In this document: positions 1,547-19,925 of the stretch, one piece after another
How positions within the stretch are numbered: position 1 is the first letter of the stretch
How the letters are laid out: each line of letters opens with the position of its first letter
From: Pseudomonadota bacterium
GTDB taxonomy: Bacteria > Bdellovibrionota > Bdellovibrionia > Bdellovibrionales > Bdellovibrionaceae
Assembly (NCBI GenBank): GCA_021300175.1
Contig: JAJTIC010000012.1
Location: 1 to 42,134, forward strand
Direction of reading: 5' to 3'
Length of the DNA: 42,134 bases
Program-made: the position numbers and the translations under genes
The notes under the pieces: generated by a model
The model's input: only the letters and a program-made list of their open reading frames with translations
What the model was told of the DNA's origin: nothing
The model's database searches: none

Positions 1547-2557
1547 TTGGGTCTCAGTCGCAAAGAGTACATATCGCTTCTTTTTTTGAAAGGGAGAGTT
1601 AAACAGCTTCCGGTTATTGGTAGCATCTTAATTTTCATATGGTGGCGGCTCAAGAAAGTCATTTATCCATTTTACTACCTTATGGGCTACTATCCATTAA
1701 GAATAACGTGCCCCCCTGAGAGCTACTCCCCCGTGGCACCGTCTGATCTTATTGAAGGCGTTTCGTTGAATTTGCGGAAAATATCCTCACCGGGGGAAAG
1801 TTGTTTGGCTTCTGAAATAGACTATTCGGAAGAAGCCTTTAAAAGAATTTTTAAAGACTTGATTGAACCCCCTGGAAAGATGGAACGAAAATCTTGGGAG
1901 TTTGTAAAGGTGATTCAAGGCCTTGAGAAGTTAGGCTGCCTTAAGCAGAACGCAAGAGGGCTTGGAGTCGGCTCTGGGTGTGAAAAGCCGCTTTATTACT
2001 TTGCATCTCACTGTACTGAAATCGTAGGCATCGATCTTTACGCAAGTGATCACCCTGACTGGGTTCACACCGCGAACTCAGATATTCTTGCCAACCCAAG
2101 CAAATACGCTCCTTTTAGTTACCCAACAGAGAGACTTGTTCTCAGGCACATGGACGCAACCCAGATGTCTTTGCCCGATGAGTCGTTCGATTTCGTTTTC
2201 TCTTTTTCGGCCATAGAGCACTTTGGGTCGAGAGACAATATCCGAAAAACAATGAATGAAATACAGAGGGTCTTGAAGCCAAATGGTATAGCCGCAATCA
2301 CGACTGAGTTAATTATTACCAAAGGTGCATCTCATCACGAGTACTTCACTTTTCCTGAGCTCAATGAGGTTATGATCCAAACTCCGGGGCTACAGCTCAT
2401 CGGGGATTTAAATCTCGCCCTTAATGAAAGTGACTTAGCACATGTGATTGATTTGCAAAAGAATGTAGCCACTGATGTCTCAATTATCTTTAAACATGGT
2501 TCAATGGCCTTTACGCCTGTTGTGTTGTTTTTGAGAAAGGCCCCGAAAAATGTTTAA
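1547..2557 (+). CDS. class I SAM-dependent methyltransferase, polysaccharide locus
   Basis: Predicted methyltransferase of 336 aa. The SAM-binding region is visible as GLGVGSGCEKPL followed by an acidic strand end (GIDLY). Further on come the D-A-T motif (HMDATQMSLP) and a post-motif-II stretch SFSAIEHFG, then LKPNGIAAITTE, typical of Methyltransf_11/25 folds. Residues about 20-45 are hydrophobic and basic, suggesting peripheral or single-span membrane attachment. The start is TTG with AGGAGA six bases upstream. The last codons overlap the start of the Wzm permease by 8 bases, so it is first in an export operon. It may methylate the glycan, for example as a cap at the non-reducing end; that is inference from position. 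Confidence 0.75.
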   Translation: MGLSRKEYISLLFLKGRVKQLPVIGSILIFIWWRLKKVIYPFYYLMGYYPLRITCPPESYSPVAPSDLIEGVSLNLRKISSPGESCLASEIDYSEEAFKRIFKDLIEPPGKMERKSWEFVKVIQGLEKLGCLKQNARGLGVGSGCEKPLYYFASHCTEIVGIDLYASDHPDWVHTANSDILANPSKYAPFSYPTERLVLRHMDATQMSLPDESFDFVFSFSAIEHFGSRDNIRKTMNEIQRVLKPNGIAAITTELIITKGASHHEYFTFPELNEVMIQTPGLQLIGDLNLALNESDLAHVIDLQKNVATDVSIIFKHGSMAFTPVVLFLRKAPKNV

Positions 2558-3314
2558 TACACAGCACATTGCCGATCTGCTGACTGAGCTCACTAAGAAA
2601 GAGCTTTCCATTCGCTACAAAAATATGGTGTTTGGATACCTATGGTCGATTGCAAGTCCTTTAGCCTATGCATTTATCTATTTTTTTGTCTTCCAGGTCG
2701 TTCTAAAGATACCTCAACCAAACTATGCCCTCTTCTTGATTGCTGGCTTGTACCCTTGGCAGTGGATTTCAAACTCGCTCGGCCAAGCGCCTACTAACTT
2801 TGTCAGTAACAGCAGCCTGATCAAAAAAACTCAGTTTCCACGCTTTCTCATTCCACTTGTTACTGTGATTCAAGATTCGCTTCACTTTTTGTTTACAATT
2901 CCCATTCTCATCCTGTTTGCAATTTACTTTAATGTCCCTCCGTCGGCTGATTGGATATGGAAAGTTCCTTTGATTTTTGGGGCACAGTTTCTTTTTGTCT
3001 ATTCTCTGCACCTTTTGATCGCCACCCTCACGCTATTTTTCAGAGATATCGAGAGATTTGTTCAAATTTTTGTCACCGTCGCTTTTTACCTCACACCGGT
3101 TTTGTACTCTGAGACAATGATCCCTGAGAGGTATCAGAACTTGATTCCATTAAACCCATTTGCGACCTTGCTTATTAACTGGAAGCATACCTTCCTAGGA
3201 ATTGATTTAGACTGGGGTTTAGTTGGGTTTTCTTATCTTTGGTCACTCTTCTTCTTTGTCGTCGCTCACTGGATCTATAAGAAGCTCTCTTGGCGTTTTG
3301 CGGAGATTATGTAA
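2550..3314 (+). CDS. wzm: ABC-2 polysaccharide export permease (Wzm-like)
   Basis: Integral inner-membrane subunit of an ABC exporter that moves undecaprenyl-linked polysaccharide to the periplasm. The 254 aa show a cytoplasmic N-terminus with the family's typical LTKKELSIRYKNMVFGYLWS region, then about six membrane spans, including a TPVLYS segment and a C-terminal span ending in WRFAEIM. Length matches Wzm/KpsM/RfbA proteins. The stop shares one base with the ATG of the ATPase gene (TAATG), so both halves of the transporter are translationally coupled. Confidence 0.88.
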   Translation: MFNTQHIADLLTELTKKELSIRYKNMVFGYLWSIASPLAYAFIYFFVFQVVLKIPQPNYALFLIAGLYPWQWISNSLGQAPTNFVSNSSLIKKTQFPRFLIPLVTVIQDSLHFLFTIPILILFAIYFNVPPSADWIWKVPLIFGAQFLFVYSLHLLIATLTLFFRDIERFVQIFVTVAFYLTPVLYSETMIPERYQNLIPLNPFATLLINWKHTFLGIDLDWGLVGFSYLWSLFFFVVAHWIYKKLSWRFAEIM

Positions 3315-4037
3315 TGTCGATTGCTGTTCAGTTTTCAAATGTGTCTAAGCACTATCCCTACTATCACCACTTGAGCGGCGGATTGAAACACTTCCTTTTC
3401 AATTTTCCAAAGTATCTTCGCGAGATCAGAAAACAGAAATTTACAGCACTTGAGAGTATTTCATTCACCATTAAAAAAGGTGAGTCAGTGGCCATTATTG
3501 GTAAAAATGGCAGTGGAAAATCGACGACTTTGGGCATGATTGCAGGGGTTCTAAAGCCTAATAATGGTGATGTGATGGTGAACGGCCGGGTTTCACCTCT
3601 CCTTGAACTTGGTGGCGGATTTCATCCTGAACTGACTGGCGCTGAAAATATTCGCCTGAATGGAGTTCTTTTAGGCCTTTCCAGAAAACAGGTCGCAGAA
3701 AAGTTTGAGCAAATTGTTGCTTTCAGCGAGCTTGGACAATTTATTGATCATCCCATTAGAACCTACTCTTCGGGCATGATGGCACGATTGGCTTTTTCAG
3801 TTGTCGCCAATTTGAATCCTGAAATTCTGCTGATTGATGAAATTCTTGCCGTGGGTGATGCCGGTTTTCAAAAAAAGTGTCTTGAAAAAATGAAAAGTTA
3901 CAAAACTCAGGGAGTCACAATTATTCTCGTCACACATAGTGCGCATGATGTCCAATTTCTCTGTGATCGTTGCATTTGGATCGACAACCATAAAATTAGA
4001 GCAGATGGACCAACTTCAGAAGTACTGCCAGAGTACA

Positions 4038-4057
<20 letters not shown>
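3314..4057 (+). CDS. wzt: ABC polysaccharide export ATPase (short Wzt-like)
   Basis: Nucleotide-binding subunit that powers the preceding permease. Numbered from the chosen ATG: Walker A GKNGSGKST at 63-71, signature YSSGM at 151-155, Walker B LLIDE at 172-176 and H-loop histidine near 208. An upstream in-frame ATG at 3290 exists, but 3314 gives the family N-terminus, has GGAG at 3302-3305 and overlaps the wzm stop by one base. At 247 aa it ends just after the ATPase domain, so it lacks the C-terminal carbohydrate-binding domain of long Wzt proteins such as E. coli O9a. Its last 20 bases overlap the convergent reductase gene. Confidence 0.88.
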
Positions 4058-5961
<1,904 letters not shown>

Positions 5962-6004: not shown

Positions 6005-7108
6005 TCAACCGAGGACCTGACTCACCGCTGCCTTGAATTCGCTGACAAACTGATCTTTCGAGAATTTTTCTGCCTGCTGGTAGCAGACCTTTGCATCAAA
6101 TTTGCGAGCTAAGAATCGATGGATCGCCGCCTTAAGGCCCTCATGACTTTCAGAGTCAAAGAACTCGGCTGTTTGATTGGTTTGCGTTTCAAGGACCCCT
6201 CCGTGACGAAGGGCAATCAGAGGAGTCCCTGAAGCGAGGGACTCGACAGGCACAATCCCAAAATCCTCAACGCCGGGGAAAATCAATCCCCGTGCTCTTG
6301 CAAGATGATCAATCACCTGGGCCCGTGTGGCATTGCCTAAAAATTCCACTGTGGGTCCTGCCATGGCTTTGAGCTTTAGCTCTTCTTGACCTGATCCGAT
6401 AATTTTCAGCGGAAGCTTCAGCTCGTTACAAACTGAAATCGCTAAATCCACTCGCTTGTTCGGGGCAAAAGCACTGAGCACCAAGAAAAAATCCTCTTTC
6501 TTCGGTGGTGATGCCTGAATGGCATTAAAATCTTTCAAATCAGCGAAGGGATATACTAAACCTGAATCTCGGCCGTAATATTTTTTAACTCGCTCTTGGA
6601 TGAATCGCGAGATCGAAACAAATTGATCCACGGACTGATTGCTGTCCTGATCAAAGCCGACGATATGGTTTTTAAATACTGCAGCTCCCCAGCGCTGATA
6701 AAAAGGGGCATGGGGACCAAAATACGTGTCGTACTGGTCGTACATATAGCGCATGGGACTTAAGATATAACAAAGATGCTTGGATCCCGAGGGTTTTTCA
6801 ATTCCTTTAATCAGGCAGTGGGATACTGAAATCACCAAATCACAGGGTTCAACTATTTTCATGGCCTTCACGGCCGATGGAAACAGGGGCAAAAACTTTC
6901 TGTAATGCAGGTGAATACCAGGGATCTCATTCAGAAATGAAGTGTGGATTTTCCGTGCCTCAATCACTGGCGAAGTCGATCCCTTTTTGTGGATCAGGGT
7001 ATAAATGGGAGCCTCTGGAAACAGCTCACAAATGGCTTCGAGAACTCGCTCCCCGCCTCGAAAGCCAACAAGCCAATCATGGAGGATCACGACCTTAGGT
7101 GATTTCAT
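6005..7108 (-). CDS. GT4-family glycosyltransferase
   Basis: Retaining GT-B glycosyltransferase similar to mannosyltransferases of O-antigen loci (WbaZ-like). The N-terminus VVILHDWLVGFRGGERVL is the family acceptor-side motif. The C-terminal half has FLVLSAFAPNKRVDLAIS and EDFGIVPVESLASGTPLIA, the E-x7-E nucleotide-sugar site. The frame runs upstream to 7219, but the homologous N-terminus begins at ATG 7106-7108; ATG 7118-7120 is the alternative. Neither has a strong ribosome binding site. GDP-mannose or GDP-rhamnose is a likely donor given gmd and rmd next door; this is inference. Confidence 0.82.
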   Translation of the reverse strand: MKSPKVVILHDWLVGFRGGERVLEAICELFPEAPIYTLIHKKGSTSPVIEARKIHTSFLNEIPGIHLHYRKFLPLFPSAVKAMKIVEPCDLVISVSHCLIKGIEKPSGSKHLCYILSPMRYMYDQYDTYFGPHAPFYQRWGAAVFKNHIVGFDQDSNQSVDQFVSISRFIQERVKKYYGRDSGLVYPFADLKDFNAIQASPPKKEDFFLVLSAFAPNKRVDLAISVCNELKLPLKIIGSGQEELKLKAMAGPTVEFLGNATRAQVIDHLARARGLIFPGVEDFGIVPVESLASGTPLIALRHGGVLETQTNQTAEFFDSESHEGLKAAIHRFLARKFDAKVCYQQAEKFSKDQFVSEFKAAVSQVLG

Positions 7109-7179
7109 GATCGACAACATACACCGACCCAATGCAATAGAATAGGACAAAGTGAGAGCTCCTTGATAGGGTCTTCGGT

Positions 7180-8589
7180 GTGCCAAACAAAATTTTTGTG
7201 GTCGATCTCGACGACACACTGATGACTAGTGACCTTCTGTATGAGCAAGCTCTGCTGCTGCTCTTTCGAAAGCCGTGGCTTATTTTCCAGCTGATTTTCT
7301 TAAGCCTTGACGGCCCCCTGGCTCTCAAAAAATTTCTTGAAAGAAATACGGAATTTGATCCTAAAAGCCAGAATTACCGATTGAGTGTCCTAGATCTTAT
7401 TAAACAAAGAAAGTCACAAGGGGACCAGATTCTGTTGTTGTCGGCTTCGCCCCACGCCTGGGTTCGATCTGTGGCCTTTCACCTCGGAGTGTTTGACCAC
7501 TATCAGGGTTCTCAAGAACTCAACATGAAGGGCCCAGCAAAAGCTAATTACTTGAAAAGCCAATTTCCAAGTCATGAGTTCGCGGTCATTACAGATTCTG
7601 TCAGCGATCAGCCCATTCTCGACATGGCTCAAGAAAAATTTCTGGTAAATCCCTCTCAGTCACTCCAGCAAAAAAATCCCCACAGCCAGATCATCAGCGA
7701 TCCGCATTCTGGAGTGAGGTCTTTAGTGAAGCTCATGCGCCCCCATCAATGGGCGAAGAATGCTCTTCTGCTTTTGCCATTGATCTTAGGACATCAATTT
7801 CATCGCTGGGATCTGTGGTTTTTTGCAATCCTAGCTATTCTGAGCTTTTCAATGATTGCTTCGGGAATTTACGCCCTGAATGATCTTTCTGACTTAGCAT
7901 CTGACCGAAGACATCACAAAAAGAAAAATCGTCCTCTGGCTTCCGGGGCTCTGTCGATCCCACAAGGCATCGGAATTTCGATCACCTTGCTCTTGATTGG
8001 CTTTACCCTCGCAAGCCAGCTCCACTTTGATTTTGTGGTGATTTTGGGAGCTTATTTTATTCTGAATTTGGGTTATTCCTTCTCCTGGAAAAGAGTCGCC
8101 TCACTGGATATTTCTTTGCTTGCGATGATGTACACTCTGCGCATCCTCGCTGGGGGAGCTGCCACGGGAATTGCCATTTCGCCTTGGCTTCTTTCGTTTT
8201 CAACATTCTTGTTTTTGGGTTTAGCCATCGCCAAGCGCTGCTCTGAAATTCAGAATCTGGTTTCTGCCAATAAGTCAGGACAAATTCACGGGCGAGGCTA
8301 TCAAGTTCAAGATATTTTTGTGCTACAACCTTTGGGTATTGGTGCAAGTTTGTTATCCATTTTGATTCTATCCCTCTATATGACAAGCACTCAAGTTGCA
8401 GAGCTTTACTTGAAACCTGATCGCCTGTGGCTCCTCAGTCCTTTGTTTGCTTTTTGGTTTGTCAGACTGTGGATTCTTGTAGGGCGAGGTAAAATGGATG
8501 AAGACCCTGTGGCCTTTGCTCTGAAAGATCAACTCAGTTGGGGGATCATGGTTGGTGCGAGCGTGATTCTTTGGAGTGCCATTTCATGA
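7180..8589 (+). CDS. HAD phosphatase-UbiA prenyltransferase fusion, DPPR synthase-like
   Basis: Two-domain protein of 469 aa. Residues 1-170 form a HAD hydrolase: D9-L-D11-D12-T (motif I), LLLSAS near 86-90, a lysine in NMKGPAK and TDSVSDQ near 139-144. From about residue 181 (LVKLMRPHQWAKN) comes a polytopic UbiA-type prenyltransferase with NDLSDLASD at 234-242 and RPLASG at 251-256, resembling mycobacterial Rv3806c, which joins 5-phosphoribose from PRPP to decaprenyl phosphate. The HAD domain would suit removal of the 5-phosphate, a separate step in mycobacteria. The start is GTG at 7180, divergent from the GT4 gene. It is followed with ATGA overlaps by DprE1- and DprE2-like genes, which supports the assignment. 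Confidence 0.82.
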   Translation: MPNKIFVVDLDDTLMTSDLLYEQALLLLFRKPWLIFQLIFLSLDGPLALKKFLERNTEFDPKSQNYRLSVLDLIKQRKSQGDQILLLSASPHAWVRSVAFHLGVFDHYQGSQELNMKGPAKANYLKSQFPSHEFAVITDSVSDQPILDMAQEKFLVNPSQSLQQKNPHSQIISDPHSGVRSLVKLMRPHQWAKNALLLLPLILGHQFHRWDLWFFAILAILSFSMIASGIYALNDLSDLASDRRHHKKKNRPLASGALSIPQGIGISITLLLIGFTLASQLHFDFVVILGAYFILNLGYSFSWKRVASLDISLLAMMYTLRILAGGAATGIAISPWLLSFSTFLFLGLAIAKRCSEIQNLVSANKSGQIHGRGYQVQDIFVLQPLGIGASLLSILILSLYMTSTQVAELYLKPDRLWLLSPLFAFWFVRLWILVGRGKMDEDPVAFALKDQLSWGIMVGASVILWSAIS

Positions 8590-9884
8590 GTGAGCTTTCA
8601 CCGGAAGGACTGTCATGGGGGCGCTTTCCCAGAGTTTCTCAAAGACAGGCTGACGCCTCCCCACTGAAGCCAATTTTGCCGTTAGACCGTTTGTTTCTGC
8701 CTCGGGGCATGGGCCGCAGCTATGGCGATTCTTGCCTCAACTCTCGTGGCCAGCTTTTGAGCACATCCAAGCTTGATCATTTGGTCAGCTTTGATCCCGA
8801 GACTTCTTGCCTGGTCGCCGAAGCCGGCGTCCGTCTCGCCGAGATCATCCATGTTTTTGGACCCAAAGGATATTTTTTACCCGTCAGCCCTGGGACCAAG
8901 TGGGTCACTCTGGGGGGCGCTGTTGCCAATGACATCCACGGGAAAAATCACCACCTTGCTGGAAGCTTTGGCAATCACGTCGTTGAGCTTTTACTGCTCA
9001 GATCTAATGGCGAACGCCTTCATTGCTCACGACTGCAAAATTCTGAATTGTTTTTTGCGACGATCGGGGGACTTGGTCTCACGGGATTAGTTCTCGAAGT
9101 GACCATCAAATTAAAAAAAGTCTCCTCTCTGTGGATTGATCAGAATGTGACTCGATTCCGCAGCCTTGATGAGTTTTATGACTTAAGCCTTCAAAAATCT
9201 CATCACGAATACACGGTGGCTTGGATTGACTGTTTAAACCCCCATGGTCGAGGTTTGTTCATTGCGGGTGACCACTCTTCCCGAACCTCAGGCCCACCGC
9301 CGGTGAAGACAAGAAAGCTTCGAGTGCCTTTTACTTTTCCGAGTATCACATTAAATCCTTTCACCGTCAGAGCTTTTAATTGGGCCTACTTTCATCGACA
9401 GCTCAAGTCTGTCAAAGCATCGACGGTGAGCTATGATCCGTTCTTTTATCCCTTAGACGTCATCCATGATTGGAACTTGATCTACGGCTCGGCAGGTTTT
9501 GTTCAATATCAATTTGTTGTCCCTCCCACGAACGAAGGAAAGAAAGCTCTCTCAAAAGTTTTTCAAAATATTTCAGAATCTGGAGAAGGCTCTTTCCTTG
9601 CTGTCTTAAAAACTTTTGGCGATATCCCCAGTGAAGGTTGTCTTTCTTTTTCTCGACCAGGTTACACGCTGGCTCTTGATTTCAAAGTAAAGCCCGAAGT
9701 CTTTAAGTTACTTGATCGATTGGATGATCTTGTTTTCTCCTGCGGAGGAGCTCTTTACCCCGCCAAAGATGCAAGAATGAGCCCCCAAAGTTTTCGAGCT
9801 TCATTTCCTGATTTGCAAAAATTCTTGCCTCATATTGATCCAAAAATCTCATCAGACTTTGCTCGCCGAATGGAGATCCTATGA
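8586..9884 (+). CDS. dprE1: DprE1-like decaprenylphosphoryl-beta-D-ribose 2'-oxidase
   Basis: FAD-dependent oxidase predicted to oxidise C2' of polyprenyl-phosphoryl-ribose, the first half of epimerisation to arabinose. From the ATG at 8586 (432 aa): RGMGRSYGD at 40-48 and NDIHGKNHHLAGSFGNHV around 115-132 are the VAO-type FAD-binding signatures. LKTFGD near 341-346, PGYTLALDF at 358-366 and PAKDAR at 392-397 line up with the active site of M. tuberculosis DprE1. The position of the drug-target cysteine (C387) is alanine here, while the lysine equivalent to K418 is kept. The ATG overlaps the preceding stop (ATGA), so the longer frame from 8538 is rejected. Confidence 0.88.
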   Translation: MSELSPEGLSWGRFPRVSQRQADASPLKPILPLDRLFLPRGMGRSYGDSCLNSRGQLLSTSKLDHLVSFDPETSCLVAEAGVRLAEIIHVFGPKGYFLPVSPGTKWVTLGGAVANDIHGKNHHLAGSFGNHVVELLLLRSNGERLHCSRLQNSELFFATIGGLGLTGLVLEVTIKLKKVSSLWIDQNVTRFRSLDEFYDLSLQKSHHEYTVAWIDCLNPHGRGLFIAGDHSSRTSGPPPVKTRKLRVPFTFPSITLNPFTVRAFNWAYFHRQLKSVKASTVSYDPFFYPLDVIHDWNLIYGSAGFVQYQFVVPPTNEGKKALSKVFQNISESGEGSFLAVLKTFGDIPSEGCLSFSRPGYTLALDFKVKPEVFKLLDRLDDLVFSCGGALYPAKDARMSPQSFRASFPDLQKFLPHIDPKISSDFARRMEIL

Positions 9885-10612
9885 AAGTTCTTTGCTTTGG
9901 TTCAACTTCAGCCATCGCCCACGAATTTTTAAAACTGCTGAATCCCAAATCTTCTGAGCTTTATCTCGTGGCCAGAAACGCTGAAAAATTAGAAAGAGAC
10001 TTCAAAGATCTGACGACACGAGGATTTAAGACCTTTTCCCTCGTGGCAGATCTTTCAAAATTAGAACTTCATGAAAACTGGCTACAAAGAATTGACTCTG
10101 AGTTCGGAACTCCAGATCTGATCCTGATTGCCTTCGGAGATTTAGGAGATCAATCTCTATCCAGTCGAGATTTCACCCAAGCTTCACTGATCATCACAGG
10201 CAATTACCTCGCTCCCATAAGCCTTCTGACTCACTATTCTGAAAAAATGAAGGCGTCCAAAATAGGAACCCTGGTGGTGATTTCCTCTGTTGCTGGCGAT
10301 CGAGGTCGAGCCACTAATTATGTCTACGGTTCTGCCAAAGCTGGCCTTTCCGAGTATTGCTCAGGGCTCAGACAAGCCCTTCTCCCCTATGATGTGCGAG
10401 TCATCACCGTAAAACCTGGTTTTGTAGATACTCCGATGACTCAGAACTTTAAAAAAGGGGCACTGTGGGCAAGGCCCCATCAAGTGGCCAAAGATATTGC
10501 CGAAGCCGTTCGCGGAAATCGGGATGTGGTCTACACACCTTGGTTTTGGTGGGGGATCATGTTCATCATCAAACACATCCCCGAATTTTTATTTAAGAAA
10601 TTAAAGTTTTAA
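9881..10612 (+). CDS. dprE2: DprE2-like SDR, decaprenylphosphoryl-D-2-keto-erythropentose reductase
   Basis: Short-chain dehydrogenase of 243 aa that would reduce the 2'-keto intermediate from the DprE1 partner to polyprenyl-phosphoryl-D-arabinose, using NADH or NADPH. Visible are GSTSAIA at 7-13 (nucleotide binding), a serine in VISSVAGDRG near 135 and Y149-x3-K153 (YGSAK) with the usual KPGFVDTPM after it. A hydrophobic C-terminus (WFWWGIMFIIKHIPEFLFKKL) suggests membrane association, as in DprE2. The ATG overlaps the dprE1 stop; the 3' end overlaps convergent galE by 4 bases. Confidence 0.85.
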   Translation: MKVLCFGSTSAIAHEFLKLLNPKSSELYLVARNAEKLERDFKDLTTRGFKTFSLVADLSKLELHENWLQRIDSEFGTPDLILIAFGDLGDQSLSSRDFTQASLIITGNYLAPISLLTHYSEKMKASKIGTLVVISSVAGDRGRATNYVYGSAKAGLSEYCSGLRQALLPYDVRVITVKPGFVDTPMTQNFKKGALWARPHQVAKDIAEAVRGNRDVVYTPWFWWGIMFIIKHIPEFLFKKLKF

Positions 10613-11607
10613 ACTTTGTTTTGCGCTCTAATTTGAATGAGCTTTTTTTCCCAATTCAAAGCAGTCTGACAGATAAGCTCTAAATCATCATGGTTTGGCT
10701 TCCACTTAAGAATTTTCTGAGCTTTTGAAGAATCGGCAACCAAAGAATCGGGATCCCCTTCACGGCGCGGGGCTTTCTCGACGGGAAAGCCTTTCTCAGA
10801 AAGCTTTTGCATGACTTCAATCACTTCTTTCACAGTGAAGCCATGACCGTACCCCAAATTGAAGATTTCAGCTTTGCCTTTCTCAAGAGGGTATTGCAAC
10901 CCCAATAAGTGAGCGGCCACCAAATCTTCGACGTGAATGTAATCTCGCTCACAAGTGCCATCTTTGGTTTGATAATCTTCGCCGAACATCATGAGCTTGG
11001 GCCGCAGGCCTAAAGCTGCTTCAGAAGCCACATTAATCAAATGAAAGGGATTCGGTCTTGCTTGGCCGATTTTAAGATCCAGCCTCGCACCCGCCACATT
11101 GAAATATCTAAAAATGATCGGCGAGATCTTTCCAATCTGAGCAAGATCAAACAAAAATCTCTCAGTGAATGACTTGCTCGCCCCATAGGGATTGATCGGC
11201 AGAACAGGTGCAGATTCATTGATGGGATTTTTCTCAGGCGTTCCATACACCGCGGCCGTGGATGAGAAAATAAATCTTTGAATCCCAGCATCCACTGCCA
11301 TCTGGATAAAACGACTGGCTTTGGTAAAATTATTTTCGTAATACTTTTGGGGTTCACGCACTGACTCGGGAACTTCGACAAAAGCCGCAAAGTGCATGAT
11401 GGCTTCTGGCTTAAATTCTGCGAGAAGTTTCTTCACAGGCTGTTCATCGGAGATATCTGCTTTCAAAAAAAGAGCTTTCTCAGGAATGGCCCAAGCGTTC
11501 CCAGCCACCATACTATCAATCACAGCCACTTCGTGACCTGCTTCCAGTAATTGATAAACCGCGTGGGATCCGATGTACCCTGCTCCGCCGGTGACAAGAA
11601 CTCTCAT
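10609..11607 (-). CDS. galE: UDP-glucose 4-epimerase
   Basis: Interconverts UDP-glucose and UDP-galactose (or the N-acetyl forms) with bound NAD. The 332 aa begin MRVLVTGGAGYIGSHAV, the Rossmann motif. Further motifs are AAFVEVPESV, the catalytic YGASK and FRYFNVAGAR, and CERDYIHVEDL, all diagnostic of GalE. The frame extends to 11700, but ATG 11605-11607 gives the correct N-terminus and overlaps the flippase stop as ATGA. It is the last gene of a three-gene operon with the flippase and the membrane glycosyltransferase, so it likely supplies a sugar nucleotide for the same glycan. Confidence 0.92.
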   Translation of the reverse strand: MRVLVTGGAGYIGSHAVYQLLEAGHEVAVIDSMVAGNAWAIPEKALFLKADISDEQPVKKLLAEFKPEAIMHFAAFVEVPESVREPQKYYENNFTKASRFIQMAVDAGIQRFIFSSTAAVYGTPEKNPINESAPVLPINPYGASKSFTERFLFDLAQIGKISPIIFRYFNVAGARLDLKIGQARPNPFHLINVASEAALGLRPKLMMFGEDYQTKDGTCERDYIHVEDLVAAHLLGLQYPLEKGKAEIFNLGYGHGFTVKEVIEVMQKLSEKGFPVEKAPRREGDPDSLVADSSKAQKILKWKPNHDDLELICQTALNWEKKLIQIRAQNKV

Positions 11608-12890
11608 AATCGACCCTCCACTTTCAACTGGGACTGCCTGATCGTGTATACCGAAATCAGGTAAAATCCAAGGGCATCCACCATCAATCGCGCACTCCAA
11701 GCAAGAACCAAGTGATCCTGATACAACTCAGAACTGAACAGCGCTAAACTTCCCATGATCACGCTGTAACTCAAAATCGGCATGAGCGCCGTCCACTTCA
11801 GAGCTGGTCCCGACTGCAAATAGGTATAAGGGATGTATCCGAGGGCATTCCCAGCCACTCCCACAAAAGCCACTTTCATAAAGAAAAAACTCTGAGAAGC
11901 GTAGTCAGAGCCCAACCAATGCAGTAAAAACCAATCGCCCAAGAAGATCACTGCAATGGACCCACCGAGGACTGCCAACAAGATCCACTTATACCCACGC
12001 AAAACAGCGCTGATTTTTTCCTGGTTAAAATAATCAAAATCTTTCGAGAGCACCGGAAACAAAACGCGATAAACAGCATTGGGGATCAAAGAAAATCGCA
12101 ACACCAAATCCATGGGAATGATGTAGTAAGCAACTTTTTCAGGCGGCACATTGGCCGAAATAATCAACCGATCAAAGTAAAGAATGATCGGGTTTGTCAG
12201 CATGATCAGTGTGAACCAAAAAGATTTGGCGTAGTGCTCACGAAGGCTTTCTTTTTTGATATTTCGAGACTGCTCTTTGAGCTTTTTCCGACCCAAAAAG
12301 TAAAATGGAATCAATGTCAAAGTTCGGCCTAACAGCAGAATCGAACAAATCACAGCCAGATTGTTCGTGACGAGAAGGCTTACGAGCGGGAAAAAGTACA
12401 ACCCCCCGTAATTCAAAGCTTGAATCGCATTGGCGATTCGAAAGTTACCAAGTCCTTCGAAAATTCCTCGGGCCAAGGTTGCTGCAAAAGTCGGCAGAAT
12501 TCCGAGCACCAACAAAATGAGTGAAACATGGACTTCGTCAAACAAACCAGGATCTGAAATCTGAAAAAGTCGATCGGTGATCTCGTGATTCCAAATGCCC
12601 GCAATGACAATAGCGGCAAAGAACACCAGCAACAAGTAACGCTCTGACCTTCTCAAAAGCCCCAAGGCCGAGTCCGCATCCCCTGTGGCCAGACTCTGTG
12701 TCATGATTCGCCCAGCTCCCAAATCCAAGATCACAAACAAATTCATCACAGTCCAAAGAACCGTCAGAACTCCAAACCTCGCATCATCCAGATGGCGCCC
12801 TAAGATAGGGATCGCCACCAATGCCAAGAGGGCTGGCAAAAGGTGGCTCACCAAAGTCAGGATAAATCGACGGTCAGATGCTTGGGTCAT
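11604..12890 (-). CDS. polysaccharide flippase, Wzx-like (MOP superfamily)
   Basis: Integral membrane protein of 428 aa with about twelve predicted spans. Features are HLLPALLALVAIPILGRHL at the N-terminus, a cluster of charged residues (KKLKEQSRNIKKES) in a mid loop near residue 210 and a second six-span half. It resembles the polysaccharide biosynthesis Wzx/RfbX transporters, which move polyprenyl-linked oligosaccharides across the inner membrane. No Wzy polymerase is visible in the window. The gene overlaps its neighbours by 4 bases at both ends. Whether it carries an O-unit or a single polyprenyl-phosphate sugar cannot be told from sequence. Confidence 0.78.
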   Translation of the reverse strand: MTQASDRRFILTLVSHLLPALLALVAIPILGRHLDDARFGVLTVLWTVMNLFVILDLGAGRIMTQSLATGDADSALGLLRRSERYLLLVFFAAIVIAGIWNHEITDRLFQISDPGLFDEVHVSLILLVLGILPTFAATLARGIFEGLGNFRIANAIQALNYGGLYFFPLVSLLVTNNLAVICSILLLGRTLTLIPFYFLGRKKLKEQSRNIKKESLREHYAKSFWFTLIMLTNPIILYFDRLIISANVPPEKVAYYIIPMDLVLRFSLIPNAVYRVLFPVLSKDFDYFNQEKISAVLRGYKWILLAVLGGSIAVIFLGDWFLLHWLGSDYASQSFFFMKVAFVGVAGNALGYIPYTYLQSGPALKWTALMPILSYSVIMGSLALFSSELYQDHLVLAWSARLMVDALGFYLISVYTIRQSQLKVEGRL

Positions 12891-14404
12891 TGAGACCTCA
12901 AGCAGTCATGATTAATTTCAATCATTTGCAAATCTGAATTTTGCCACCGACTGGAAGTAAACCGATTTCGCTCGCTGTAACATTGTGACTGAACCAACAG
13001 ATTCCGATATCCACCTCGCTGTGCTCGATCTTCCGATGTCCACATCGCTGAAAAATCTAAAACGAGGGACAAATTCCTTTCAGACAAGAACTCCATGAGC
13101 TTGCCATTTCTAATGAACTCATGAGCTGAGTCATTGGTCAGTCCATCAATATTTGTGACCTTGTTTCCTGAGTACCAAGACAGAACGCCCGCATTCCATG
13201 CAGCAACTTTTGAAATTGAGGACTCGCTCTTCAACCACACTCCCGCTTCATAAAAGCCCCTTTGCCAGGGAAAATGGGCTCCCCAGAAACTCTTCATCGA
13301 CAAAATCATAAATCCCGCAAGGGCCAGAACGCCCACCCATCTTGCAAAAAAACCTCCAAGCACAGACCCTAAAATCAATGTTGGCAGAAAAAGGTTGGCC
13401 ACATACCAAGGCTGAATGGCTTGTGAATTGTGCCGGTAATACACGAAATAACCGATGAGTGTCACAGCACTCACACTCACCCAAAAGATGGACTTGACTT
13501 CTTTCTGCCGAAAAAGACGAGTCAAACCAACACACATAAAAATCAAGATCAAAGGCAGTTTGAGATCCCCTCCGAAAGGAAAGACCAATTGGGTCCATAG
13601 CTGGAAAATGGGTTTGATTGAAAAACCCATCAACTGGGACCAATAAAGCTTCATCGCTGCACTTCCCTGAACCCAGGCTCCTGAAATTAAATAACTGTGC
13701 AGCAGTGACAAAATCACTCCGAATCCTGCCCCCATTGTCAGCACTAAGCCGCTGGCCAATCTCACTGGAGATTCCTTCCTGAGAACCTTGCACAACAAGC
13801 TGCCAGCCGTGATGACACCAAAAAACAAGCCAAAATCAGTCCTCGCCAGAGACCCCAAAAGTCCTATCAAAAAAAGAAGAGCAAAACGAGACCCTCGGTG
13901 AGACGGAGCTCCCCCCTCGGGCGTCTTCAGTAACTGGATCAGGCCTGCCAGTAAAAAGGCGATGACAAGCCACGACTCCATCAAGAACACCATCTGATCC
14001 ATCATCAAGGGACTTAAGATAAGTCCCAGATAAAACAGCAGAGAGAGCTTCCCTGAATGATCACTCAAATGATGAGCCGCAAAGATTTTCCAGAATTTGG
14101 CAACGAAATAAGCATAACTCAGCCCCGCGAGGCCCGATACGACGAGAAAGACACCATGAAGACTTTCAAAGCCCAACTTGAAAAGACCCACCAAAAAGTA
14201 GGCGTACAAAGGGTGAAAACCGGTGGCAGGATGAATTCCATCCAGAGTCCACTGCCCCGTCTGTGAGAAGTTCTTTGCCAGTTGCAGATAATAAAAAGCA
14301 TCATCGGGAACCACTTGAACCAAGTGCTCAGTTCCAAAAGCCACAGCAAGAATGGCTTTGCCCAGACAAAAAACTGCAACCCCACAAAACAATAACCAAG
14401 ACAT
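12887..14404 (-). CDS. GT-C type membrane glycosyltransferase (GT39/ArnT-like)
   Basis: Polytopic protein (505 aa from ATG 14402-14404) with about ten to twelve spans. The first periplasmic loop holds VVPDDAFYYLQLAKNF and HPATGFHPLYAY, the Asp-Asp type motif of GT-C enzymes, which use polyprenyl-phosphate sugars as donors. The C-terminal 110 residues form a soluble domain with AAWNAGVLSWYSGNKV and NIDGLTN, seen in several GT39-like proteins. A TTG six codons upstream is possible, but the ATG has AGGA eight bases before it. It overlaps the flippase gene by 4 bases. A polyprenyl-phosphoryl-arabinose donor made by the neighbouring DprE1/E2 genes is an attractive guess, not shown. Confidence 0.72.
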   Translation of the reverse strand: MSWLLFCGVAVFCLGKAILAVAFGTEHLVQVVPDDAFYYLQLAKNFSQTGQWTLDGIHPATGFHPLYAYFLVGLFKLGFESLHGVFLVVSGLAGLSYAYFVAKFWKIFAAHHLSDHSGKLSLLFYLGLILSPLMMDQMVFLMESWLVIAFLLAGLIQLLKTPEGGAPSHRGSRFALLFLIGLLGSLARTDFGLFFGVITAGSLLCKVLRKESPVRLASGLVLTMGAGFGVILSLLHSYLISGAWVQGSAAMKLYWSQLMGFSIKPIFQLWTQLVFPFGGDLKLPLILIFMCVGLTRLFRQKEVKSIFWVSVSAVTLIGYFVYYRHNSQAIQPWYVANLFLPTLILGSVLGGFFARWVGVLALAGFMILSMKSFWGAHFPWQRGFYEAGVWLKSESSISKVAAWNAGVLSWYSGNKVTNIDGLTNDSAHEFIRNGKLMEFLSERNLSLVLDFSAMWTSEDRAQRGGYRNLLVQSQCYSERNRFTSSRWQNSDLQMIEINHDCLRSQ

Positions 14405-14425
14405 AGCCCGATCCTCGCTCAAAAC

Positions 14426-14455: not shown

Positions 14456-14527
14456 ACACTGCATCCAAGCTGCGCTTGAGAGCCCGAATTTCTTGACTGA
14501 GTGAAGGCTTTAGGGGACTTTGTTCCA

Positions 14528-17500
14528 ATGCCTTCAAGACAAAAACAACTGCTCGATGCTGCTGATCGAAAAGTCCTCGTTATTGACGGGGCCATGGGGA
14601 CCCAAATTCAGGCTCTGCACCTGGGGGCCGAAGATTTTGGTGGGGAACACCTCGAAGGCTGCAATGAAAATTTGATTTTGACGAGGCCCCATCTTATTCA
14701 AAGCATTCACGAAAAATATTTGGAAGCGGGCGCCGACATTGTCGAGACCAACACGTTCGGTGCCACGCCCCTGGTTCTTGATGAATATGGTTTGGGATCA
14801 AAGGCCTATGAGATCAACCTCAAAGCCGCTCAAATTGCCCGGGCAGCTTGTGACAAATTCACCACTCAAGACTGGCCTCGCTTCGTCGCTGGCAGTATTG
14901 GTCCCACCACAAAATCTCTGTCAGTGACGGGTGGGGTTAAGTTTGAGCAGCTCGAAGAAGAATTTTACCTTCAAGCCAAAGGCTTGATCGACGGCGGCTC
15001 TGATTATCTTTTGATCGAGACAGCTCAAGACTCGCGCAATATCAAAGCCGCTCTGCGGGGAATTGAAAAACTCGAGCACGAACACAAAGCCAAATATCTT
15101 GTGGCAATCAGTGGCACTGTGGAAACCATGGGAACATTGCTTGCTGGCCAAACTGTGGACGCACTGTTGGCGAGTGTCATGCACCGAGATCTTTTTTACA
15201 TTGGTCTTAACTGCGCCACGGGTCCTGAGTTCATGACAGATCATATCCGCACTTTAGCAAAGCTTTCGCCTTATAGAGTTGCCTGCGTTCCTAATGCTGG
15301 CTTGCCAGATGAAGAAGGCTGCTATTTAGAAACTCCAACGATGATGAGTAAAACATTGGAGTATTTTTTAAAGGCGGGCTGGATCAATGTGGTGGGTGGC
15401 TGCTGTGGAACTCGCGAAGATCACATTCATTCGTTTGCTGACCTTGCCAAAGGCTTTAAGCCACGCCCATTACCTGAGCTTCATAAATCGATCCTCAGTG
15501 GAATTGATTTCCTCGAAGTCTCTGATGACATGAGACCTTTGCTCGTCGGTGAAAGAACCAATGTCATTGGTTCTAAGAAATTTAAAACCCTCATCACTGA
15601 CGGACAGTTCGAAACAGCCGCCGACATCGCTCGCGCGCAGGTCAAAGCTGGGGCTCACATCATCGATGTCTGTTTGTCTAATCCAGATCGGGACGAGCAC
15701 AGCGATATGATTCGATTCATGGAGTATGCATCCAAAGTCGTCAAAGCTCCTTTCATGATCGACTCGACCGATGAACACGTGATCGAAAAAGCTCTCACTT
15801 ACTGCCAAGGAAAATCCATTATCAATTCGATCAATCTCGAAGACGGTGAAGAGCGTTTCGAGAAAGTGGTCCCTTTGGCCAAATCCTATGGCGCTGCTCT
15901 TGTGGTGGGCACCATTGACGAAGATCCTGAAAATGGAATGGCGGTTACCCGCGAACGAAAACTCGAGGTCGCCAAACGCAGTTATGATCTCTTGGTGAAT
16001 AAATACGGAGTCCTTCCCGAAGATATTTATTTTGATCCTTTGGTTTTCCCCTGCGCCACCGGTGATCAAAAATATGTGGGCTCAGCTGTGGAAACCATCG
16101 AAGGTGTGCGCCTCATTAAGCAAAAATTTCCTCAATGTAAAACAGTGCTCGGTGTTTCCAACGTGAGCTTTGGCTTGCCTGCAGCCGGTCGAGAAGTTCT
16201 CAATTCTGTGTTCCTGCACCACTGTGTTCAAGCAGGTCTTGATCTTGCGATTGTGAACACTGAAAAGCTTGAGCGCTATGCTTCGCTCCCCGCTCACGAG
16301 ATCGAACTGGCTAACAATCTTCTCTACAACAAAGGCGAAGATCCTGTCGCTGCCTTCGCAGCTCAGTTTCGTGAAAAACGAGTCAAAGCGGCTAAACGCG
16401 ACCTCTCAAAGCCACCCCAAGAAAGACTTCCACAAAATGTCATCGAAGGTTCTAAAGAAGGCCTCATTGAAGATCTGGATCTTTGCCTTCAAAGCATGAG
16501 ACCTCTTGAGATCATCAATGGCCCCCTCATGAAGGGCATGGACGAAGTGGGTCGGCTCTTTAACGACAACAAGCTGATTGTGGCCGAAGTTCTTCAAAGT
16601 GCCGAAGTCATGAAATCAGCGGTGGCCCATCTTGAACAGTTCATGGAAAAATCCGATGCCCATAATCGGGGCACAATGTTACTTGCGACCGTCAAAGGGG
16701 ATGTTCACGATATTGGAAAAAATCTCGTGGACATTATCCTGAGCAACAATGGCTACAAAGTGATCAACTTAGGCATTAAAATTCCCCCTGAAAAACTGAT
16801 CGAAGAAGCTAAAAACCACAAGCCAGATTTTATTGGCCTGAGTGGTTTACTTGTGAAATCTGCCCAGCAAATGGTGATCACGGCTGAAGACTTAAAACGC
16901 GCAGGGATTCACGTTCCACTGATGGTGGGCGGTGCCGCCCTCTCAAGAAACTTCACCGAGAAGAAAATTCTCCCGGCCTACGGTGGACTTGTCTTGTATG
17001 CTCAAGATGCCATGAACGGTCTTGATCTCGCTCACCAACTGCGAGACGAAAAGTCCTATAAACTCCTCGAAGAAAAGATCAACCAACGACGCACAGAGCT
17101 CTCTGAAGAGGCACCTTTAACTATTTCCGAAGAGAGCCCGAAAGAAGATCTGCCGGAAAGATCTCCCCAGGTTGAATGTCTCAAGAGCTCCCCCTCGCCC
17201 CCTGATTTTTCTAAACACGTGGTGAGATCAACCCCAATTGAAACCATCTGGAAATTTATCAATCCCCTGATGCTCTACAATCGTCACTTAGGGATCAAAG
17301 CGGGCTCTGCCAAACTCATCGGCGAAGGTCAGCTCAATCTTTTAAAAGAAAAGGACCCTGCGGCCTATGAAGTGGCGATGAAAGTCGAAGAGGTCAAACA
17401 AGAATACCTCAAACAGGATGTCTTCAAGCCACAAGCTGTGTACCAGTTTTACCAGTGTCGCTCGGAGAAAAATCGAATTCATCTTTTCAACGAGACTGAA

Positions 17501-18016
17501 AAGCATCTTGGATCTTGGGATTTTCCTCGACAAGAAAAACTTCCCCATCTTTGCCTCAGTGACTATGTGGCTATGGACCGCATGGACAACCTGGCTCTGT
17601 TTGTGGTCACGGCAGCCCACCGGGTGCGAGAAATTTCCACAGCCTTGAAAGAGAAAGGTGATTTCCTCAAATCACACATTGTCCAAGCATTGGCTATTGA
17701 GACTGCGGAAGCTTACGCCGAGCAAATGCATTCGCTGATTCGCGCGCAGTGGGGTTTTGCAGATTCTCCTGAAATGCGCATGATGGATCGCTTTCAAGCG
17801 AAGTATCAAGGAAAGCGCTACTCTTTCGGTTACCCCGCGTGCCCACGACTGGACGATCAAGCTTTGCTGTTTAGTCTGTTGAAGCCACAAGATATTGGAG
17901 TTGATCTGACCGAAGGATTTATGATGGACCCTGAAGCTTCGGTATCAGCCGTCGTCTTTCATCATCCCCAAGCTCAGTATTTCAGTGTTGGAAATGCCGC
18001 GGAGTTCAATGCGTGA
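14528..18016 (+). CDS. metH: cobalamin-dependent methionine synthase
   Basis: Transfers the methyl group of 5-methyl-tetrahydrofolate to homocysteine via methylcobalamin. All modules are present in 1162 aa. The homocysteine domain has zinc cysteines in GLNCATGPE (near 229) and GGCCGT (near 291). The pterin-binding domain starts at LLVGERTNVIGS (near 340). A helical cap and the B12 domain follow, with the D-x-H-x-x-G motif GDVHDIGKN and its cobalt-ligand histidine near 726. The C-terminal reactivation domain has DYVAMDRMDN and GYPACPRLDDQA. A Ser/Glu/Pro-rich linker near 855-890 separates the last two. GTG 14501 is in frame upstream, but ATG 14528 has AGGGGAC at good spacing. It overlaps the next gene by 4 bases. 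Confidence 0.95.
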   Translation: MPSRQKQLLDAADRKVLVIDGAMGTQIQALHLGAEDFGGEHLEGCNENLILTRPHLIQSIHEKYLEAGADIVETNTFGATPLVLDEYGLGSKAYEINLKAAQIARAACDKFTTQDWPRFVAGSIGPTTKSLSVTGGVKFEQLEEEFYLQAKGLIDGGSDYLLIETAQDSRNIKAALRGIEKLEHEHKAKYLVAISGTVETMGTLLAGQTVDALLASVMHRDLFYIGLNCATGPEFMTDHIRTLAKLSPYRVACVPNAGLPDEEGCYLETPTMMSKTLEYFLKAGWINVVGGCCGTREDHIHSFADLAKGFKPRPLPELHKSILSGIDFLEVSDDMRPLLVGERTNVIGSKKFKTLITDGQFETAADIARAQVKAGAHIIDVCLSNPDRDEHSDMIRFMEYASKVVKAPFMIDSTDEHVIEKALTYCQGKSIINSINLEDGEERFEKVVPLAKSYGAALVVGTIDEDPENGMAVTRERKLEVAKRSYDLLVNKYGVLPEDIYFDPLVFPCATGDQKYVGSAVETIEGVRLIKQKFPQCKTVLGVSNVSFGLPAAGREVLNSVFLHHCVQAGLDLAIVNTEKLERYASLPAHEIELANNLLYNKGEDPVAAFAAQFREKRVKAAKRDLSKPPQERLPQNVIEGSKEGLIEDLDLCLQSMRPLEIINGPLMKGMDEVGRLFNDNKLIVAEVLQSAEVMKSAVAHLEQFMEKSDAHNRGTMLLATVKGDVHDIGKNLVDIILSNNGYKVINLGIKIPPEKLIEEAKNHKPDFIGLSGLLVKSAQQMVITAEDLKRAGIHVPLMVGGAALSRNFTEKKILPAYGGLVLYAQDAMNGLDLAHQLRDEKSYKLLEEKINQRRTELSEEAPLTISEESPKEDLPERSPQVECLKSSPSPPDFSKHVVRSTPIETIWKFINPLMLYNRHLGIKAGSAKLIGEGQLNLLKEKDPAAYEVAMKVEEVKQEYLKQDVFKPQAVYQFYQCRSEKNRIHLFNETEKHLGSWDFPRQEKLPHLCLSDYVAMDRMDNLALFVVTAAHRVREISTALKEKGDFLKSHIVQALAIETAEAYAEQMHSLIRAQWGFADSPEMRMMDRFQAKYQGKRYSFGYPACPRLDDQALLFSLLKPQDIGVDLTEGFMMDPEASVSAVVFHHPQAQYFSVGNAAEFNA

Positions 18017-19005
18017 GCCGTGAAAAACTGAAGAATTTTTTCATCGGATTTCTTAAGCTCGCGTTCGCAGCCGGAGTGATCGTTTGGCTGATTCAAAGTG
18101 ACAAACTTGATCTTGCTTCCCTTCGCCCCTTACTCGAACCTAAAAATCTTTTGATTTGTTTTTGTTTGACCATAGGAAATGTGACTTTGATCGCTTACCG
18201 CTGGCAAATTTTACTTTTGAGTCAAAAAATTATCACTCCTTTCTACAACACTCTGAAGCTCACATTGATTGGGCTATTTTTCTCTTACCTGATCCCCGGT
18301 GGAGTCGGCGGCGATTTCGTGAAAGCTTTCTATGTCGTCAGAAATAACCCCAGTGCGAAACTCAAATCCGGACTGACCATTGTTGTGGACCGCCTGATTG
18401 GACTTTTTTGTATTATGACCATGGCCCTCTCTGTGATGGTTTATGACTATGATCGTGTGAGCCAATCCCCGGCTTTGCACTCTTTGTTTGGAGTGATGGT
18501 TCTGATTTATTTGGCTTTTTCTTTGGCCTGGGCTTTTGTTTTCTCCCGACGACTGTTTGAGCTTCAGATTCTCCAAAAATTTCTCTCTCAGGTTTTGAAG
18601 TCCCAAAAGCTTTTGAAAACCTACCAAGAAGTGGCCACTTATCGTGACGCCAAAGCCTCTTTTGTTAAGGGATTTCTCCTGACACTCTTAGCTCAATCAC
18701 TCGCCGTGTTCTTTTTTATTTATGTGGGCTCCTTGGTCTATGAAGGACAAATTCCTGTTTCGATTTATTTCTTTGCCGTGCCCGTAGGTTTTATGGCGAC
18801 AGCCGTGCCGATCTCTCCTGGTGGGGTCGGTGTTGGCCAAGCAGCCTTTTACTTTTTGTTTAATACAGCTTATGGAAAGGTCACAGATGTGGGTTCCGCC
18901 ACGATCACAGCCTTTCAAGCTGTGCTGTTTTGCTTGAGCCTCTTGGGGGCGCTTGCCTACATTAAAATGAAACGGGAAATCCCCCCTCAGGAAGAGCCAT
19001 CATGA
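18013..19005 (+). CDS. YbhN/AglD-type flippase-like membrane protein (UPF0104)
   Basis: Polytopic protein of 330 aa in the lysylphosphatidylglycerol-synthase transmembrane-domain family. Family features are LIPGGVGGDFVKAFYV near residues 95-110 and the late motif PISPGGVGVGQAAFYFLF near 270-287, with about eight hydrophobic spans. It lacks the soluble catalytic domain of MprF, so it is not itself an aminoacyl-lipid synthase. Members are linked to lipid or polyprenyl-sugar handling, but the function is mostly unknown. The start is GTG overlapping the metH stop (GTGA), and its end overlaps metF, so it sits inside a methionine/folate operon for no obvious reason. Confidence 0.8.
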   Translation: MSREKLKNFFIGFLKLAFAAGVIVWLIQSDKLDLASLRPLLEPKNLLICFCLTIGNVTLIAYRWQILLLSQKIITPFYNTLKLTLIGLFFSYLIPGGVGGDFVKAFYVVRNNPSAKLKSGLTIVVDRLIGLFCIMTMALSVMVYDYDRVSQSPALHSLFGVMVLIYLAFSLAWAFVFSRRLFELQILQKFLSQVLKSQKLLKTYQEVATYRDAKASFVKGFLLTLLAQSLAVFFFIYVGSLVYEGQIPVSIYFFAVPVGFMATAVPISPGGVGVGQAAFYFLFNTAYGKVTDVGSATITAFQAVLFCLSLLGALAYIKMKREIPPQEEPS

Positions 19006-19925
19006 CTGAAATCTTCAAGCCCGATCGAAAGCTCATTGATATTTTGCGAGAATCTTCTTTCACGATTTCGGCAGAGGTCATTCCACCAAGAAACGGGACT
19101 CCCCAAACCAAAATTTTTGAAGAGCTGAAAGAGCTGATCCATGCTGGCTCCCAGTTTCTCTCAGTCACCAAAGGCGCCGGGGGTTCTTTGCGTGGGGGAT
19201 CTCTCCCTATTGCTCAATCGATTAAAGATTACTTTAAAGTTCCTGCGATTGCTCACTTTACCTGCCGTGATTTGACTCCTCAGGATGTTGAGAATCAGCT
19301 CATGGATCATCACTATGTAGGGATTCGCAATATCTTAGCGCTCAGAGGCGATCCCCCCAGGGATTTGCCAGATTGGAAACCTCTGCAAGGATCCTATAGC
19401 TATGCCTATCAGCTGATCGAGCAGATTCGGAAGCTCAATCAAGGTCAGTTCCTTGAGCGGCCGAATTTTGAAATTCAGTCTGCATTGAACACGGATTTTT
19501 GTATTGGGGCTGCGGCGTATCCTGACGAACCCAATCCCGCCGCGCGCACAGAGCACTTTGCCGCCAAGGTTCGCGCAGGGGCTGAGTACGCCATCACACA
19601 GATGATCTATGATGTGGACTCCTATTCTCGATTTCTCGAAGAGATTGCAAAAGCAAACTGCACTGTTCCTGTATTACCAGGGGTCAGGATTCTTTCTTCA
19701 CAAAAACAGGCTGACAGGATGCGAAATCGATTTCAAGTGCCGATTCCTCGTCATGTCTCCTCTGCTCTTCCCCCAGAGGATTCATCTCCAGATCAAGCTC
19801 TCGAGGTTTTTCTAAAACTTGTGGAAAGCTTCAAAAAAGCTGGAGCCCCCGGTCTGCATGTTTTTGTTCTGACCGACACAGACTTGGCGTGTCGAGCCCT
19901 GCGAAATCTCGCCACACAAATGTAA
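19002..19925 (+). CDS. metF: 5,10-methylenetetrahydrofolate reductase
   Basis: FAD enzyme of 307 aa that makes 5-methyl-tetrahydrofolate, the methyl donor for MetH two genes upstream. The N-terminal FTISAEVIPPRNG holds the conserved glutamate. Further motifs are LSVTKGAGGS, FTCRDLT, NILALRGDPP and YAITQMIYDVDSY, in the order and spacing of MetF. The ATG overlaps the preceding stop (ATGA). Co-transcription with metH is the expected functional coupling. Confidence 0.93.
   Translation: MTEIFKPDRKLIDILRESSFTISAEVIPPRNGTPQTKIFEELKELIHAGSQFLSVTKGAGGSLRGGSLPIAQSIKDYFKVPAIAHFTCRDLTPQDVENQLMDHHYVGIRNILALRGDPPRDLPDWKPLQGSYSYAYQLIEQIRKLNQGQFLERPNFEIQSALNTDFCIGAAAYPDEPNPAARTEHFAAKVRAGAEYAITQMIYDVDSYSRFLEEIAKANCTVPVLPGVRILSSQKQADRMRNRFQVPIPRHVSSALPPEDSSPDQALEVFLKLVESFKKAGAPGLHVFVLTDTDLACRALRNLATQM

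Follow-up and report, generated by a model that had tools for sequence, protein, structure and literature searches.

D-Arabinofuranose (D-Araf), the synthesis of which is a drug target in tuberculosis, is usually regarded as a sugar of the mycobacterial cell wall. The O1/O2 O-antigen loci of Citrobacter youngae carry Wzm, Wzt, Gmd, and Rmd together with ORF12 to ORF15; in this system ORF15 is the PPPRS-PRP, ORF14 the flippase, and ORF12 the GT136 enzyme, and the pentofuranose is added in the periplasm, after polymerization (PMC11127046). The two-step activity of the ORF15 fusion was shown by Kelly et al. in 2024, who also linked DprE1/E2 homologues in candidate systems to arabinofuranose side chains (PMC11127046). 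Here we analyzed a contig of 42,134 nucleotides from a member of the Bdellovibrionaceae (JAJTIC010000012.1, assembly GCA_021300175.1; the whole contig is called the window below), in which a HAD-UbiA fusion gene is followed by DprE1-like and DprE2-like genes. The assignment of this trio to the synthesis of a polyprenyl-phosphoryl-D-arabinofuranose donor is well supported, and we hold it with high confidence. On the basis of gene linkage, the locus as a whole is likely a three-component system adding D-Araf to a polysaccharide exported by an ATP-binding cassette (ABC) transporter.

Predicted donor-synthesis trio

The trio lies on the plus strand and consists of the HAD-UbiA fusion (7180 to 8589, 469 amino acids), which is of the ORF15 type (PPPRS plus PRP) and by homology a polyprenyl-phosphate ribofuranose synthase, the DprE1-like flavin adenine dinucleotide (FAD) oxidase (8586 to 9884, 432 amino acids, ATG at 8586), and the DprE2-like SDR reductase (9881 to 10612, 243 amino acids). 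An initial annotation made from the DNA letters had described three open reading frames joined by two ATGA overlaps, and both junctions were read in the sequence: fusion to DprE1 as ..tttcATGAgtg.. (ATG at 8586, TGA at 8587 to 8589) and DprE1 to DprE2 as ..cctATGAaag.. (ATG at 9881, TGA at 9882 to 9884). The identities that it gave to the three proteins were borne out by domain, profile, and PDB matches, and its proposal that a fused transferase/phosphatase and a DprE1/E2 pair make polyprenyl-phosphate-linked D-Araf was supported. The match scores, together with the occurrence of the three genes in this order in many other genomes, rule out chance.

In the fusion, the HAD domain (PF12710, residues 66 to 147, 36.5 bits, cut-off 27) and the UbiA domain (PF01040, residues 205 to 446, 74.5 bits, cut-off 34.2) are in one frame, and the protein matched NF006088/PRK08238 over its full length (residues 5 to 468 of 469, 501.6 bits versus a cut-off of 351). 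Thus, the novelty implied for the fusion in the initial annotation did not stand: the family is catalogued, and the two-step activity of this arrangement was published in 2024 for ORF15 (PMC11127046). All of the catalytic residues that we checked in both domains were present. HAD motifs I to IV are kept (D9/D11, S88, K121, and D139/D143), including the nucleophile, and the UbiA domain has the NDxxDxxxD motif of loop II (N234/D235/D238/D242) and the R..E pair of loop IV (R353/E356). The spacing of these UbiA residues equals that of N247/D248/D251/D255 and R366/E369 in C. youngae ORF15, with a constant offset of 13, and these are the residues that were mutated in that enzyme (PMC11127046).

The UbiA domain stood apart from other UbiA enzymes, as judged from profile scores, a tree, and the fold. 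Decaprenyl-phosphate phosphoribosyltransferase models scored 152 bits, versus 30 to 35 bits for ubiquinone and heme models. In a tree rooted at its midpoint, in which Rv3806c was represented by a fragment of its sequence only, the window protein was one of 38 relatives that, together with Rv3806c, were placed apart from 17 other UbiA proteins. The mycobacterial enzyme (8j8j) was also the best PDB match of the fusion by both sequence and fold. The comparison of a predicted structure with Rv3806c, which the initial annotation had suggested, gave a confident AlphaFold model (23 sequences; predicted local distance difference test score [pLDDT], 92.8) with 8j8j as its top match (template modeling score of 0.82 by target length); HAD phosphatases of the phosphoserine-phosphatase type were matched as well.

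Because neither of the other two proteins reached the equivalog cut-off of its mycobacterial-type NCBIfam model, they are called DprE1-like and DprE2-like. The DprE1-like protein matched Mycobacterium tuberculosis DprE1 structures over residues 38 to 432 of 432 (E value of ~3e-73), with the active-site residues H118, K120, Q307, Q309, and K394 corresponding to H132, K134, Q334, Q336, and K418 of the M. tuberculosis enzyme. The DprE2-like protein scored 275.9 bits with NF005489 (cut-off 267), had DprE2 as its best PDB match (E value of 9e-29), and contains the SDR residues S136, Y149, and K153. The genome yielded no other full-length DprE1, the sole additional match being weak, partial, and on another contig. 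The position of M. tuberculosis C387 is occupied by A363 in the DprE1-like protein (window positions 9672 to 9674), and the five aligned relatives that extend far enough to include the site have alanine there as well. Cys387 of mycobacterial DprE1 is the covalent target of benzothiazinones, and Ala363 predicts natural insensitivity to covalent inhibitors of this class.

UbiA, FAD_binding_4, and SDR are broad families, and the trio might instead act on other substrates, with a quinone or lipid prenyltransferase joined to an unrelated phosphatase and with the oxidase and the SDR protein modifying another metabolite. However, the UbiA domain falls with Rv3806c and apart from the 17 other UbiA proteins, the catalytic residues are kept, the active site and near-full-length similarity of DprE1 hold, and the three-gene linkage was found repeatedly; we consider this explanation extremely improbable. 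The gene identities and catalytic residues of the donor pathway are established by sequence and, for its first step, also by fold. By analogy with characterized homologues, the fused phosphoribosyltransferase/phosphatase would make polyprenyl-phosphate ribofuranose, and oxidation at C2 by DprE1 followed by reduction by DprE2 would yield polyprenyl-phosphate-D-Araf.

Distribution of the fusion and the DprE genes

In a sample of 369 genomes of the phylum, 30 had an NF006088 match above the cut-off. Among 28 full-length fusion loci from this sample, DprE1 or DprE2 was present in the examined stretch in 14 and absent in 14 (L073, L075, L078, L080, L083 to L089, L092, L093, and L098), with some of the 28 stretches ending at contig boundaries. 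The DprE-free loci may add ribofuranose or another pentofuranose, and this even division may make the choice between arabinose and another pentofuranose predictable from sequence. The order fusion-DprE1-DprE2 was found again in at least 10 other loci. Among named records, 79 from plasmids had a fusion match that spans 80% or more of the query. An annotated Burkholderia stagnalis replicon has the order fusion-FAD oxidoreductase-SDR and also carries GtrA close by, and a Rhizobium plasmid has the order fusion-GtrA-FAD oxidoreductase-SDR.

Two kinds of partial relatives were observed. L094 and L096 (and G256 and G259) encode HAD-domain proteins of ~350 to 390 amino acids that match mainly the first part of the fusion profile; the UbiA NDxxDxxxD motif is missing from L094 and L096, which possibly are diverged or represent a different fusion. 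Unfused, UbiA-only phosphoribosyltransferase relatives occur in L035, L090, L091, and L097, those of L090 and L091 adjoining DprE1. Because such unfused relatives exist in the same phylum, the HAD domain must have been gained, lost, or separately supplied.

Candidate flippase, transferase, and acceptor

The initial annotation overlooked the genes next to the trio that hint at the destination of the arabinose: a GT-C-like gene, a flippase candidate, and ABC O-polysaccharide genes. Downstream, on the minus strand and convergent with the trio, a set of three genes is joined by two ATGA overlaps. It consists of a probable GT-C arabinofuranosyltransferase gene (12887 to 14422), a gene for a MOP-superfamily (Wzx-like) flippase (11604 to 12890; PF01943, 66.8 bits) that is a candidate for lipid-linked arabinose, and a gene for a GalE-type UDP-glucose 4-epimerase (10609 to 11607; TIGR01179, 405.8 bits, cut-off 262.3), the end of which overlaps the end of the DprE2 gene by 4 nucleotides. 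GalE probably supplies a backbone sugar. A route to lyxofuranose through DprE1/E2 and an ORF13-like C3 epimerase was considered but not favored, given this strong GalE match. In the proposed pathway, the lipid would be moved to the periplasmic face by a flippase, for which the MOP protein is the likeliest candidate, and the GT-C-like protein would pass D-Araf to the polysaccharide; family membership and linkage point to these roles, and the presence of D-Araf in the envelope is predicted from the genes.

The transferase candidate has 511 amino acids, about 9 to 10 hydrophobic helices, and a DD motif (D40-D41), and its GT-C label was given because of these helices and this motif, not a solved fold. 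It had no Pfam or NCBIfam family match. A single-sequence search of the 369 genomes returned one other match, in G185, encoded directly behind DprE2. A profile built from four members (A1) then detected two more, one in G454 and one in G558, each with DprE1 and DprE2 as neighbors; the profile contained L006 and L072, which had been picked for adjoining DprE genes, and the new members were most like L006. The single-sequence and A1 searches are not fully independent because some A1 members were chosen by their DprE neighborhood. Weaker A1 matches in G554, G532, G636, and G278 had no DprE neighbors in the examined stretches, and the searched plasmids gave no match to the transferase. In L033, L009, and L006, GT-C-type (PMT_2) genes are neighbors of the fusion or of DprE genes. 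The A1 profile aligned with AftB (E value of 2e-4), placing D41 and R194 at the catalytic D62 and R221, but membership in the AftB family was not adopted, as the similarity is weak, suggestive only, and not reproducible.

The MOP flippase and the GT-C protein might also use a different polyprenyl-phosphate sugar, such as galactose or glucose, independently of the arabinose genes. The lipid donors of GT-C enzymes vary, a different lipid-linked glycan could be the substrate of the MOP protein, and GalE is tied to both genes by the ATGA overlaps. However, no GtrB-type lipid-sugar synthase was recognized among the window proteins scanned, and transferase family members adjoin DprE genes in G185, G454, and G558, so that we regard a separate sugar as quite improbable and retain the use of lipid-linked arabinose by these two proteins.

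Because neither GtrA nor SMR genes were found in searches of this genome, which is 93.5% complete, the MOP protein is the best candidate for a flippase in the locus; elsewhere the genome has eight matches to the EamA domain. An LPG_synthase_TM gene (18013 to 19005) was rejected as the flippase because 21 of 24 relatives carry it and most of these lack the fusion. In the window it is part of one apparent operon of overlapping genes (14501 to 19925) for MetH, the LPG_synthase_TM protein, and MTHFR, which suggests a link of this membrane protein, common to the 21 relatives, to methionine metabolism. An LPG_synthase_TM "flippase-like" gene lies beside fusion or DprE genes in L005, L006, L111, and L112; in L006 and L112 it stands between the GT-C gene and DprE1. 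In these four loci it may be an alternative lipid-arabinose flippase. Tentatively, and with more doubt than confidence, we suggest that the window transferase and its relatives by DprE genes (L095, L006, L111, and L112) form an uncatalogued family of Gram-negative arabinofuranosyltransferases, for which the lipid-arabinose flippase was drawn from different families depending on the lineage (MOP here, LPG_synthase_TM in L005, L006, L111, and L112, and GtrA or EamA elsewhere). The transferase family and the flippase type are less charted than the fusion.

On the other side of the trio are genes for a Wzm-type ABC-2 polysaccharide exporter permease (2550 to 3314, plus strand; PF01061, 45 bits; NF050109 galactan-export permease, E value of 7e-13), a Wzt/TagH-type polysaccharide export ATPase (3290 to 4057, plus strand; NF010065, 226 bits, and NF050108, 194 bits, both under the equivalog cut-offs), an SDR sugar reductase/epimerase (4038 to 4973, minus strand; PF16363, 97 bits), GDP-mannose 4,6-dehydratase (Gmd) (4951 to 5940, minus strand; TIGR01472, 449 bits, cut-off 415), and a GT4-family glycosyltransferase (6005 to 7219, minus strand; PF00534, 68.9 bits). 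The SDR protein is possibly Rmd (GDP-6-deoxy-hexose reductase) because its gene overlaps gmd. The GT4 gene is divergent from the fusion gene and probably starts nearer 7108. The polysaccharide made and exported by these Gmd, GT4, and Wzm-Wzt genes would most likely be the acceptor.

The same donor is known to serve pilins (PMC12369383) and Nod factors (PMC5080398), and the trio could make polyprenyl-phosphate-D-Araf for another acceptor: a pilin (by TfpW, as in Pseudomonas), a secreted oligosaccharide (by NoeP, as in Nod factors), or another glycan, with the minus-strand GalE, flippase, and transferase genes serving that acceptor or being unrelated. The opposite strand of the flippase and transferase genes and the widely varying neighbors of other DprE loci fit such an arrangement. 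However, the trio is flanked by Wzm/Wzt, Gmd, and GT4 genes on one side and by the flippase and transferase genes on the other, and no pilin gene was recognized among the window proteins scanned. Another acceptor thus appears unlikely, and the ABC-exported polysaccharide is preferred.

Several observations weigh against this preferred assignment of the locus. The DprE1-like and DprE2-like proteins scored 343 bits with NF053785 and 167.8 bits with NF053786, below the equivalog cut-offs of 500 and 250 bits, respectively. The weakest link is the MOP flippase, which had no homologue in the other DprE loci examined, and both it and the transferase are encoded on the strand opposite to the trio, in convergent orientation. 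The model of the transferase from four sequences was too poor to bear out the GT-C fold (pLDDT of 37) and was not used, and three other alignments (A4, A5, and A6) failed to reproduce the AftB match. Additionally, the window comprises an entire contig, and its end at base 1 may cut the locus short.

Comparison with known systems

With donor synthesis, flippase, and transferase seemingly encoded together in one compact Gram-negative locus, the pathway could be tested in a simple host, down to the steps of flipping and transfer, about which little is known. The initial annotation had pointed to precedents outside mycobacteria, and these hold for noeCHOP of Azorhizobium (PMC5080398, PMC2443382) and for Pseudomonas pilin arabinosylation (PMC12369383). 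As in Azorhizobium/Rhizobium noeCHOP and Pseudomonas paraeruginosa PSPA7_6245-6251, where polyprenyl-phosphate-D-Araf is known or proposed to be made, the donor here would be of nonmycobacterial origin; the acceptors of those systems are Nod factors and pilin, and the PSPA7 transferase, unlike the window fusion, has no HAD domain (PMC11127046). Compared with the mycobacterial decaprenylphosphoryl-D-arabinose pathway (Rv3806c, Rv3807c, DprE1, DprE2, and AftB), the reaction order is the same and the transferase, oxidase, and reductase are homologous, whereas the phosphatase is a fused HAD domain unrelated to Rv3807c, the DprE1-like protein has alanine at the Cys387 position, and no Emb/AftA family was recognized among the window proteins scanned.

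The fusion is a member of NF006088/PRK08238 ("UbiA family prenyltransferase"), with no difference found. The locus also resembles that of C. youngae: both have an N-terminal HAD domain fused to a UbiA phosphoribosyltransferase with the same catalytic spacing, flippase genes (here a candidate) and GT-C-like genes, and a polysaccharide locus with Gmd and Wzm/Wzt, the Wzm, Wzt, and Gmd genes near the trio here matching genes of the O1/O2 loci. In contrast, DprE1/E2 (arabinose) are present here, while C. youngae has none (ribose) or ORF13 (xylose), and the candidate flippase here, a large MOP protein, differs from the 4-helix protein of C. youngae. Because Kelly et al. (2024) characterized the fusion biochemically and noted DprE1/E2 homologues in candidate Araf systems (PMC11127046), the locus is not of a new kind, and its donor-synthesis genes are a further instance of that arrangement.

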